The notes under the pieces were generated by a model. That model was not told where the DNA came from. It saw only the letters and a list, made by a program, of their open reading frames with translations, and searched no databases. Of a stretch of 38,874 nucleotides of DNA, positions 3,435 through 7,243 are shown piece after piece. The stretch's first letter is position 1. Every line of letters begins with the position of its first letter. The stretch comes from Chitinophagaceae bacterium (GTDB lineage Bacteria; Bacteroidota; Bacteroidia; Chitinophagales; Chitinophagaceae). The stretch is from contig CANEWJ010000007.1 of NCBI GenBank assembly GCA_947442625.1, forward strand, positions 1 to 38,874. Direction: 5' to 3'. The position numbers were made by a program, and so were the translations under genes.

Positions 3435-3447
3435 TCCAACATTGACA

Positions 3448-5094
3448 ATGAAGAAAATTGTTCTGAAAGTACACCCCAGAGACAATGTGATTGTAGCCTT
3501 GCGTGACCTTGAAAAGGCCGAAATCATTGATTTTGAGGGATTTCAATATGAGATGCAGGAAAAAGTGCAGGCCAAGCATAAATTTTATACGGAAGACCTT
3601 CCCCAAGGCAGTGAGGTGATTATGTATGGAGTGCTTGTGGGTAAAGTGCAGTACGACGTGAAGAAAGGAGGGTTGATGACTACTGATAACCTTCATCATG
3701 CCGCAGATCCATACGCCTATCGGGATGCTGAATACAAATGGACAGCTCCTGATGTTTCAAAATATGCAGGAAGAACCTTCAATGGCTACCACAGAACCGA
3801 TGGCCGTGTAGGCACAGCCAACTATTGGCTTTTCATTCCAACCGTTTTCTGCGAAAACAGGAACCTTGATGTGATCCGTGAAGCCATGCACAATGAATTG
3901 GGTTATGCGGTTACAGATAAGTACAAACGCTATACCAGGATGCTTAAAGAGGCCTATGAAAAAGGCGAGCAACTGGATCATGATGCGGTGAACCTTTCTG
4001 CAGGAACTGATGCAAAGGCAAGCCGCTTGTTTAAAAATGTAGATGGTATCAAATTCCTCAACCACCAGGGTGGATGTGGTGGAACAAGACAGGACTCTGC
4101 TATTTTAGAAAACCTGCTTGCGGCTTATGCTGATCATCCCAATGTAGGTGGCATAACTGTTTTGAGCTTGGGCTGCCAGCATCTTCAAGTGGATACATTT
4201 GTTGATACCATCAAAAAACGCAATCCTCATTTTGACAAGCCCATCCATGTTTTTGAACAACAAGGACCAATGAGTGAAGAGGAGTTGATCAAACATGCGA
4301 TTGCTTCAACCTTCAAGGGATTGATTGAAATCAACAAACAGGAACGCAAGCCTGCAGGCCTTGATACATTGACTGTTGGCGTGAAATGCGGTGGCAGCGA
4401 TGGTTTCAGCGGTATTTCTGCCAATCCTGCAGTAGGGTATTTTTCGGATTTGCTGGTAGCACTCAATGGAAAAATTTTGCTGGCAGAGTTTCCTGAACTC
4501 TGTGGTGCTGAGCAGGAGCTCATCGACAGGTGTGAAACCAAAGCATCTGCAGAAAAATTTATCAAACTGATGGATGAATACAGTGCACAGGCCATTCAGG
4601 CTGGATCAGGATTTCACATGAATCCATCTCCAGGAAACATCAGGGATGGCTTGATTACCGATGCCATCAAGAGTGCTGGCGCTTGCAAGAAGGGCGGCAC
4701 TGCACCTGTGGTGGATGTGCTTGACTACACCGAACCAGCAACCAAGGCAGGTTTGAGCCTTGTCTGTACTCCCGGAAATGATGTTGAAGCCACTACCGGC
4801 AAGGCCGCTTCAGGAGCAACCTTGATCCTGTTTACAACAGGCCTTGGCACACCAACCGGAAATCCCGTTTGCCCAACCATCAAAGTGGCCACCAATTCAA
4901 CCCTTGCAAAACGCATGGCTGACATCATCGATATTGATTGTGGACCAATCGTGGAAGGTGAAAAGACCATTGAAGAAATGGGCGAAGAAATCATGGAGTA
5001 TTGCATCAAAGCCGCCAGCGGTGAATTGATACCCAAGGCCGTCCAGCTCAACCAGGATGATTTCATTCCCTGGAAACGCGGCGTATCCTTGTAG
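3448..5094 (+). CDS. uxaA: Altronate dehydratase
   Basis: MKKIVLKVHPRDNVIVALRDLEKAEIIDFEGFQYE... TFNGYHRTDGRVGTANYWLFIPTVFCENRNL ... HQGGCGGTRQD ... GVKCGGSDGFSGISANPAVG ... TTGLGTPTGNPVCPTIKVATNS, typical of UxaA. The ORF-track start at 3442 is a TTG; an ATG lies at 3448. Confidence 0.93.
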   Translation: MKKIVLKVHPRDNVIVALRDLEKAEIIDFEGFQYEMQEKVQAKHKFYTEDLPQGSEVIMYGVLVGKVQYDVKKGGLMTTDNLHHAADPYAYRDAEYKWTAPDVSKYAGRTFNGYHRTDGRVGTANYWLFIPTVFCENRNLDVIREAMHNELGYAVTDKYKRYTRMLKEAYEKGEQLDHDAVNLSAGTDAKASRLFKNVDGIKFLNHQGGCGGTRQDSAILENLLAAYADHPNVGGITVLSLGCQHLQVDTFVDTIKKRNPHFDKPIHVFEQQGPMSEEELIKHAIASTFKGLIEINKQERKPAGLDTLTVGVKCGGSDGFSGISANPAVGYFSDLLVALNGKILLAEFPELCGAEQELIDRCETKASAEKFIKLMDEYSAQAIQAGSGFHMNPSPGNIRDGLITDAIKSAGACKKGGTAPVVDVLDYTEPATKAGLSLVCTPGNDVEATTGKAASGATLILFTTGLGTPTGNPVCPTIKVATNSTLAKRMADIIDIDCGPIVEGEKTIEEMGEEIMEYCIKAASGELIPKAVQLNQDDFIPWKRGVSL

Positions 5095-5117
5095 TCGATT
5101 AAAATCTATCGCACAAT

Positions 5118-5160
5118 CCCCAACCCTTAAACCCCTAAACCCCTAAACCTCTCCACCCCT
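5118..5160. repeat. Telomere-like C-rich tract (CCCCaaCCCttaaaCCCCtaaaCCCC...), G-quadruplex-capable on the - strand
   Basis: Four C-runs of 3-4 separated by 2, 5 and 4 nt in the uxaA-kduD gap. Confidence 0.8.
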
Positions 5161-5173
5161 CAACCTCTCTAAC

Positions 5174-5941
5174 ATGAATATCCTCTCCGCATTCAACCTC
5201 TCAGGAAAAACTGCCCTTGTAACCGGTTGCAACCGTGGGATCGGTATGGGCATGGCCATAGGACTTGCAGAGGCCGGTGCAGACATCATTGGCGTAAGCG
5301 CTTCACTTGCTCCAGGCAGTGGGGTGGAAAAGCAGGTAACTGCATTGGGCAGAACATTCCAACCTTACCAGGCTGATTTTTCCAGCAGGGACAGCATCTA
5401 TATTTTTCTTGGTCAGTTGGCAGAAGCTGGAATTGTTCCGGATATCCTTGTCAACAATGCGGGTACCATCATGCGCAATCCGGCAGCTGAACACAGTGAT
5501 GAATACTGGGACCGCGTCATCAACATCAACCTTGATGCACAGTTCATCATGTCCAGGGAAATTGGCAAAAAAATGATTGAAAGAGGATCTGGAAAAATAA
5601 TTTTCACCTGCTCATTGCTTTCCTTCCAGGGAGGAATCAATGTTCCTGGCTATGCTGCTAGCAAAGGGGCATTGTCTAGCCTCGTTAAAGCATTGGCCAA
5701 TGAATGGGCATCAAAAGGGGTAAATGTAAATGGCATTGCCCCAGGTTATATTGCCACTGATAATACCGAAGCCCTGAGAAACGATCCTGAGCGCAGCAAA
5801 TCGATTATGGATCGCATTCCCGCCAAACGCTGGGGTGAACCCGAAGATTTCAAAGGAGCCATTGTTTATTTGGCCTCAGCCGCCAGCAGCTATGTTCACG
5901 GAGAAATCCTGACCGTAGATGGAGGATGGATGGGACGATAG
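5174..5941 (+). CDS. kduD: 2-dehydro-3-deoxy-D-gluconate 5-dehydrogenase / 2-deoxy-D-gluconate 3-dehydrogenase (SDR family)
   Basis: ILSAFNLSGKTALVTGCNRGIGMGMAIGLAEAGADIIG ... NNAGTIMRNPAAEHSDEYWDRVININLDAQF ... YAASKGAL ... NVNGIAPGYIATDNTEALRNDPERSKSIMDRIPAKRWG, strongly KduD-like. Confidence 0.88.
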   Translation: MNILSAFNLSGKTALVTGCNRGIGMGMAIGLAEAGADIIGVSASLAPGSGVEKQVTALGRTFQPYQADFSSRDSIYIFLGQLAEAGIVPDILVNNAGTIMRNPAAEHSDEYWDRVININLDAQFIMSREIGKKMIERGSGKIIFTCSLLSFQGGINVPGYAASKGALSSLVKALANEWASKGVNVNGIAPGYIATDNTEALRNDPERSKSIMDRIPAKRWGEPEDFKGAIVYLASAASSYVHGEILTVDGGWMGR

Positions 5942-6048
5942 GGTGTAGGGGTTTAAGGGTTTAGAGGTGTAGTGGTTTAGGGGTTTAAAGGGGATGTAAA
6001 ATACCTAACCCTCTAAACCTTTAAACCCTAAACCTCTCAACCCTCAAC
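5942..6048. repeat. Telomere-like inverted repeat (G-rich GGGTTTA half, then C-rich CCTAAACCC half) between convergent kduD and fba
   Basis: GGGTTTAAAGG (5981-5991) pairs perfectly with CCTTTAAACCC (6018-6028). GGTTTAGAGG (5958-5967) can alternatively pair with CCTCTAAACC (6010-6019). Confidence 0.8.
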
Positions 6049-7116
6049 TCAACTATTTCTATTGATGCAATTGAGGTCCTCAAATGCAACCTTCAACCTT
6101 GCCATGAAGGTTTCTTCTCCTTTGCGGAGCCAAACCCTGGGGTCGTAGTATTTCTTGTTGGGCTTTTCAGCACCCTCTGGATTGCCCAATTGTGCCTGGA
6201 GATAGGCTTCGTTTTTCTTGTAGTTGTTCAATACACCTTCCCAGAAAGCCCACTGGAGATCGGTGTCGATATTCATTTTGATGGCACCATAACTGATGGC
6301 TTCCCTGATCTGGTGCTGTGGTGAACCGCTTCCACCATGGAATACAAAGAATACTGGCTTGTCGCCGGTATTGAACGTTTTTTGGATATAGTCTTGGGAG
6401 TTTTTCAAAATTTCCGGGCGCAGTTGAACGTTGCCTGGGCTGTAAACACCATGAACATTGCCAAATGCAGCTGCAACGGTAAACAGTTCACCCACCTTGC
6501 CAAGTTCTGTATACGCATGGGCCACGTGTTGTGGCTGTGTATAAAGCTTGTCGTTTTCAACGTCTGAATTGTCAACACCATCTTCCTCACCACCAGTAAC
6601 ACCCAATTCAATTTCAATACCCATGCCAAGCGGCGCCATGCGTTTGAAGTATTCCACAGATGTGGCGATGTTCTCTTCCAGTGGTTCTTCGCTGAGGTCA
6701 AGCATGTGAGAACTGAACAGGGGCTGTCCTTTTTCTTTGTTGTATTGCTCACCAGCATCAATCAATCCGCTGATCCATGGCAACCATTTTTTGGAAGCAT
6801 GGTCGGTATGAAGCACAACAGGAACGCCATAGTATTTGGCCACATTGTGGATATGAAGCGCACCTGAGATGGCACCGGAGATATTCGCCTGCAACTGATC
6901 ATTGGGCATGCCTTTTCCTGCGATAAACTGTGCACCGCCATTTGAAAACTGAATGATGACAGGAGAGTTCACTGCAGCGGCAGCTTCTAGTGTAGCATTG
7001 ATGGTATCTGTGCCAGTGGTATTCACTGCAGGCATGGCGAATTGATTGTCTTTTGCGTCTTGGTAAAGTGCTTTCAGGTTATCTCCGAATAGCACACCGG
7101 CTTTGTATTTGCCCAT
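6049..7116 (-). CDS. fbaA: Class II fructose-bisphosphate aldolase
   Basis: MGKYKAGVLFGDNLKALYQDAKDNQFAMPAVNTTGTDTINATLEAA...VVLHTDHASKKWLPWISGLIDAGE...HSSHMLDLSEEPLEENI...VFHGGSGSPQHQIREAISYGAIKMNIDTDLQWAFWEG. Start moved to the internal Met at 7116. Confidence 0.93.
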   Translation of the reverse strand: MGKYKAGVLFGDNLKALYQDAKDNQFAMPAVNTTGTDTINATLEAAAAVNSPVIIQFSNGGAQFIAGKGMPNDQLQANISGAISGALHIHNVAKYYGVPVVLHTDHASKKWLPWISGLIDAGEQYNKEKGQPLFSSHMLDLSEEPLEENIATSVEYFKRMAPLGMGIEIELGVTGGEEDGVDNSDVENDKLYTQPQHVAHAYTELGKVGELFTVAAAFGNVHGVYSPGNVQLRPEILKNSQDYIQKTFNTGDKPVFFVFHGGSGSPQHQIREAISYGAIKMNIDTDLQWAFWEGVLNNYKKNEAYLQAQLGNPEGAEKPNKKYYDPRVWLRKGEETFMARLKVAFEDLNCINRNS

Positions 7117-7210
7117 ATTGGTTGTTTTAGATTCGCAAATATCGTAAAAAGATGGGAGAATTCTGCTGTCCTGGGTCATGTGGCCATTTCTACCCGAGCG
7201 CAGGTAGGCA

Positions 7211-7243
7211 AAAAAAATCCCGGTTGCACCAGGCAACCGGGAT
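7211..7243 (-). terminator. Rho-independent terminator of the TlpA-like gene
   Basis: Perfect 11-bp stem ATCCCGGTTGC-ACCAG-GCAACCGGGAT (7217-7243), followed on the - strand by a T-run (A7 at 7211-7217 on +). Confidence 0.88.

Follow-up and report, generated by a model that had tools for sequence, protein, structure and literature searches.

Tandem arrays with a fixed orientation at gene edges and changing repeat units in Chitinophagaceae: the tract between uxaA and kduD

The tract CCCCAACCCTTAAACCCCTAAACCCC in the gap between uxaA and kduD of a Chitinophagaceae genome (positions 5118-5143) is a member of a dispersed family of tandem arrays built from the 8-bp unit AACCYYTA/TARRGGTT. The G-rich strand of these arrays points away from the nearest gene, and sister species carry other repeat units in the same gaps with the same orientation. 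This polarity with changing units is a new finding and is followed as a strict rule. Intergenic tandem repeats of short units tend to be written off as noise from slippage. A near-exceptionless orientation at gene edges, with a word that is swapped between sister species and with occurrences in unrelated Bacteroidota, indicates that the gap is acted upon rather than its sequence, either by transcript-level selection or by copying with a polarity.

The window, i.e., the whole analyzed stretch of 38,874 nucleotides, contains three arrays, all of them beside kduD (Table 1). Tandem Repeats Finder (TRF) assigns the tract a period of 8 bp, not 7, and past the tract the units decay until the array ends 5 bp before the kduD ATG. 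Two further arrays, which the earlier sequence-only reading of this DNA did not mention, are located near the 3′ end of kduD; the first has the opposite orientation and the second is its inverted partner. The gene is hence preceded by a C-array and followed by a G-array that begins at its stop codon. The G-arm and C-arm of the kduD-aldolase gap are predicted to fold together with an energy of -49.6 kcal/mol (z -4.67). Four congeners (G004, G014, G023, and G006) have a classical hairpin and T-run terminator in this gap, which the window species lacks, the hairpin of the two arms standing in its place. The sequence-only reading had correctly described the sequence and coordinates of the tract, the length of the gap and a four-run G-quadruplex (G4) motif on the minus strand at 5118-5143, which is the single strict one in the gap, and its gene names uxaA and kduD agree with the profile matches, that of kduD lying just under the cut-off.

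Table 1. Positions of arrays, gaps, and genes around kduD (window coordinates).
Feature	Position	Strand	Remarks
UxaA/GarD-family altronate/galactarate dehydratase, full-length	3442..5094	+	PF20629 2.1e-95, PF04295 1.2e-36
uxaA-kduD intergenic gap	5095..5173		79 bp; orthologous gaps compared
C-sense array (AACCYYTA)n, the reported tract	5122..5168	+	wraparound alignment score 39.5; TRF period 8
KduD-like short-chain dehydrogenase	5174..5941	+	TIGR01832 9.9e-98; 326.6 bits, slightly below the 338.85 cut-off
G-sense array (on + strand)	5940..5991	- (C unit reads on -)	score 44.5; starts within the kduD stop TAG, 2 bp inside the ORF
kduD-aldolase convergent gap	5942..6048		107 bp, wholly G-arm + 12-bp spacer + C-arm
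C-sense array at the 3′ end of the convergent class II aldolase gene	6004..6047	+	score 33.5; 1 bp from the aldolase ORF
Class II fructose-bisphosphate aldolase, convergent neighbor	6049..7236	-	NF006628 3.9e-163, above cut-off

Degenerate patterns and their reversed controls were compared across the 2.6 Mb genome. The 23-base pattern AACCYYTAAACCYYTAAACCYYT, which spans three units, is matched exactly at 27 sites and its control at 0; for a 13-base core pattern the counts are 90 and 0. Judged against these controls, the tract is far above chance and is not unique, bearing out the suggestion of the sequence-only reading that it belongs to an intergenic repeat family. Around about 40 match clusters, 272 kb of sequence contain 67 arrays, 63 of which lie in gaps between genes, the others being at contig ends (3) or within a called ORF (1), a confinement to intergenic DNA like that of TAACTGA-type repeats. 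The genome statistics combine these 272 kb with 439 kb of largely unselected sequence, window included. Since the latter holds only about 5 arrays (4 at threshold 20), the arrays are clustered and not placed in every gap. As the genome has many gaps and arrays are present in only about 45 of them, an essential role does not follow. On the G strand the unit reads GG-T-(T/G)-(T/G)-A-(A/G)-(A/G), nearly without C, in which the frequency of GG is inflated by a counting rule that demanded a leading GG or at least 7 of 8 matches; the variants include GGTTTARR, GGTGTAGR, and GGTTGAGR. The arrays crowd on some, mostly short, contigs (C38, C91, C106, C121, and C162), and contigs C5, C9-C13, and C15-C25 are nearly free of them; assembly breaks at arrays, regional history or binning may account for this clustering.

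The G-rich strand points away from the nearest gene in 56/57 informative arrays, regardless of gene direction (binomial p about 4e-16), the count being taken from the nearest gene edge per array and leaving out arrays that touch both edges, those at contig ends and the one inside an ORF. The one array that breaks the rule is over 60 nt away from every gene edge. The pattern that located the sites is blind to strand, so this polarity cannot be an artifact of the search. It applies to start and stop edges alike, whether the gap is tandem, convergent or divergent, and from the point of view of the transcript it makes leaders C-sense and trailers G-sense. Within single gaps there are 21 pairs of adjacent arrays, of which 20 consist of a G-arm followed by a C-arm, 1 is C then C, and none is C then G; all 20 opposite-strand neighbors are thus ordered G to C. 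Of 21 arrays at start edges, 16 are at most 10 nt away from the start codon, and most stop-edge arrays are no more than 10 nt from the stop codon or overlap it. The array itself often supplies the stop codon, with TAG making up 19/38 of these stops vs. 63/308 in unselected genes. Within arrays, the strand that enters genes contains 45% C, 1% G and 18 YC dinucleotides per 60 nt, against a background of 22%, 22%, and 6.9. Arrays of other units follow the same rule, namely 21/22 of those found de novo by TRF with a clear G/C skew (in this genome and in same-genus stretches) and 11/11 arrays of GGGACRA. Arrays seem to have given the upstream proteins altered C-termini at two loci (L177, about 4840, and L170, about 10700), where the stop codon used in sister species has disappeared and a stop within the array closes the ORF instead.

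For 16 gaps with arrays, the genes on either side were located in three sister species (G004, G006, and G009), mostly at 85-97% identity. The 38 orthologous gaps contain a 9-mer (GGTTGAAGR) in 24 cases, a 7-mer (GGGACRA) in 3 and a 12-mer (GGGAAAGGCRRA) in 1, and 10 are empty or weak. The 8-mer is the best dialect in 0/38 of them, compared with 16/16 in the window species, a figure that holds by construction as the gaps were picked for carrying it. The switch of unit is independently supported, because the exact 23-mer is absent from 36 congeners and the abundance of the 9-mer is reversed, its pattern matching 34 times in G004, 8 in G006, 32 in G009, and 4 in the window species. The units of the congeners keep the same polarity at the orthologous gaps, none of which shows the order C to G. 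Several inter-arm spacers hold terminators common to the sister species, and several dialects occur side by side in one congener genome. The uxaA-kduD gap itself contains CAACCTCTT-type arms without four G-triplets in G004 and G014 and essentially no array in G023, and the kduD gaps of G004, G014, G017, and G008 contain other tandem motifs. The condition that the sequence-only reading named as its refutation, a tract found once in the genome with nothing at orthologous loci, therefore does not hold: the array belongs to a dispersed family, and orthologous gaps contain arms of the same polarity, although their sequence is not conserved. In two gaps (L293 in G004 and L306 in G009) both arms share a private unit, the 12-mer and the 7-mer, respectively, unlike most other gaps of these genomes, which suggests that the two arms of one gap may be copied from each other. 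Short palindromes, e.g., CAGCCTTCGGCTGG and GGCCTGCGGCCTGTTGAA, are found among the tandem arms at L189, L188, L283, L316, and L181 (about 1161-1190), within gaps of sister species and once in the window species, and are possibly REP-like.

A scan of a genome collection for four units in a row found at least 119 stretches, and among the matches listed most are from Bacteroidota. Some of these genomes contain dozens of matches each to a 21-base pattern, with 0 for the control. The polarity is followed in 23/24 cases in four distant Bacteroidota genomes, with gene calls based on pooled or borrowed training, and in 37/44 over all named loci, where the gene caller was crude and several loci come from one genome.

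The sequence-only reading likened the tract to a telomere and proposed that its G4 motif might tune kduD expression. The plant-type telomeric repeat (TTTAGGG)n does resemble the unit by eye, and this much of the comparison stands. However, the period of 8 bp means that it is not the plant unit, which also differs in that the unit found here is variable, lies inside the chromosome between bacterial genes and is swapped for unrelated units in sister species. A telomeric repeat is rejected, as the array is internal, between uxaA and kduD, with no evidence of a linear end. A G4 element that controls kduD would find its basis in the four-run motif on the template strand, but strict G4 motifs occur in only 16/67 arrays, the four G-runs are not conserved across copies, and they are missing from the orthologous gaps. 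Moreover, the kduD leader on the mRNA is the G-free strand, predicted to be unstructured (0 kcal/mol). Control of kduD by a quadruplex is thus extremely improbable, and the G4 potential is probably incidental, a by-product of units that contain GGG.

Polarity and dialect switching are direct observations, from which a mechanism may be inferred. The reading that is tentatively preferred, as a possible rather than an established account, takes the tract as one arm of a gene-edge tandem-repeat system with fast turnover, whose orientation would be held by selection at the level of the transcript. Non-coding gaps would be partly filled by short arrays of the species-dominant unit, here AACCYYTA/TARRGGTT, which would reach up to the stop and start codons and leave only a locus-specific core (terminator, promoter) between the arms. 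Replication slippage together with template switching would drive growth and turnover, and the unit would be replaced at many loci within one species, as the pattern in the sister species displays, whatever the cause. The orientation would be fixed such that the strand read entering a gene is C-rich and almost free of G, and the strand read leaving it is G-rich, most likely through effects on transcripts. Next to a start codon lacking a Shine-Dalgarno (SD) sequence, a G-free leader would remain free of structure, the G-arm and C-arm could form a long hairpin at 3′ ends, and the arms might provide a Rho-loading tract for transcripts that enter the gene from the wrong side. Arrays in the wrong orientation would presumably be purged, as a G-rich leader would fold and a C-rich trailer would attract Rho.

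Several observations bear on this preferred reading. Leaders of Flavobacterium johnsoniae are tuned by low structure, without SD sequences (PMC6847099), and the generic leaders of the window species contain 0.20 C vs. 0.11 G. Its genome includes a rho gene, and in other bacteria Rho suppresses antisense transcription, with utilization tracts of about 78 nt that have C over G and regularly spaced C (PMC6407284). The inbound strand of the arrays, with its 45% C and 1% G, has C in every 8-bp unit, and most arms are only 40-60 nt long. Against selection on untranslated regions, generic trailers in the same genome are nearly balanced in G and C, which leaves the G-rich trailer without independent support. 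At L175 (the gap after 3044) a conserved terminator and a conserved promoter-like stretch enclose the two arms, which are probably not part of the transcripts and are still ordered G to C; this locus fits an inverted-repeat property of the gap better than it fits selection on untranslated regions. Slippage alone does not explain a whole-genome change from 9-mer to 8-mer at many unlinked loci. The balanced trailers, the L175 arms and the genome-wide switch, for which slippage does not suffice, are the reasons why the mechanism is held only tentatively.

Neutral growth of microsatellites seeded by gene-end sequence (a stop codon followed by G, C-rich leaders) would dispense with selection and derive the polarity from a weak bias in composition. 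Conserved gene ends are already unit-like in places, e.g., CAGGTTTAA at L167 and GGGTTGAAGTAG at L160, coding sequences end with 0.20 G vs. 0.16 C, and leaders have C over G. However, this bias is far too weak to yield 56/57 by itself, and independent seeding cannot put the same 8-mer at about 40 loci while the orthologs share a 9-mer, so that this account is unlikely, if still to be taken seriously. Inverted arm order in all 20 opposite-strand neighbors and the dispersal of the copies would also be expected if palindromic elements resembling MITEs or REPs, with repeats as their arms, had spread by transposition. Such an origin is disfavored and considered very improbable, because an all-against-all comparison of the 12 inter-arm spacers of at least 25 bp reveals no homology and no common core (one weak 42-bp match), the spacer terminators are also found in orthologous gaps, and the copies have no fixed length or ends.

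Templated or untemplated addition of repeats to DNA 3′ ends, similar to chromosome healing, would place G-rich repeats outward on both broken ends before these are joined, so that each gap looks like a fusion of capped ends; alteration of one template would then suffice to change the dialect throughout the genome. The arrangement C-gene-G at every gene and G to C in every two-armed gap has the geometry of a telomere fusion, and dialect switches are species-wide with restricted variation of the unit. This origin is nonetheless improbable: the genome, which is 92% complete, has no match to the reverse transcriptase profile RVT_1 (PF00078), ancestral terminators persist between the arms, several dialects coexist in one congener genome, and breaks next to a gene should often leave the spacer side tailed as well, giving C-arms beside left genes, none of which is seen. 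A broader proposal, and a decidedly speculative one that would probably prove wrong, is that these Bacteroidota possess a dedicated writing process: starting at gene edges, it would add a species-specific word in the outward direction with fixed polarity and periodically change that word genome-wide. Such writing would consist of templated or protein-guided end addition or copying, each species having its own gap dialect.

Among known systems, the short tandemly repeated repetitive (STRR) heptamers of cyanobacteria are, like the arrays described here, dispersed intergenic tandem arrays of a short unit; to our knowledge, no gene-edge polarity is known for them. DNA uptake sequences (DUS/USS) share the species dialects and the inverted pairs at gene ends, but they are single 9-12-mers that are scattered also in genes and are not arrays confined to gaps. 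The papers listed by a literature search with repeat sequences were all unrelated, dealing with primers and the like, and the open-access literature searched yielded no account of gaps with two arms or of sister species in which one unit has replaced another. The nearest described case, as far as the available text of its report extends, is that of the TAACTGA intergenic direct repeats of Beggiatoaceae, some cyanobacteria and Bacteroidetes (PMC4679880). These are likewise short-unit tandem repeats in intergenic DNA, placed in one orientation a few nt from start codons, and one Bacteroidetes set lies directly after the stop codon in reverse orientation, which corresponds to the edge polarity found here (PMC4679880). 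Their phylogeny is patchy, and some relatives have short gaps free of repeats (PMC4679880). They differ in their 7-bp unit, which is not C-rich and is not that of the present arrays (AACCYYTA), and in being mostly start-side, and the available text mentions neither two-armed gaps nor concerted unit replacement among sister species (PMC4679880). REP/BIME elements with RAYT transposases are also intergenic, are arranged in inversion and form hairpins near gene ends, but according to the accessible part of that account they are single palindromic units spread by a transposase, in contrast to tandem arrays of 7-12-bp units (PMC2817692).

Elsewhere in the window, upstream of the uxaA reading frame, an AT-rich unit of 75 bp is perfectly duplicated head to tail at positions 2661-2811 (2.0 copies, 100% identity).
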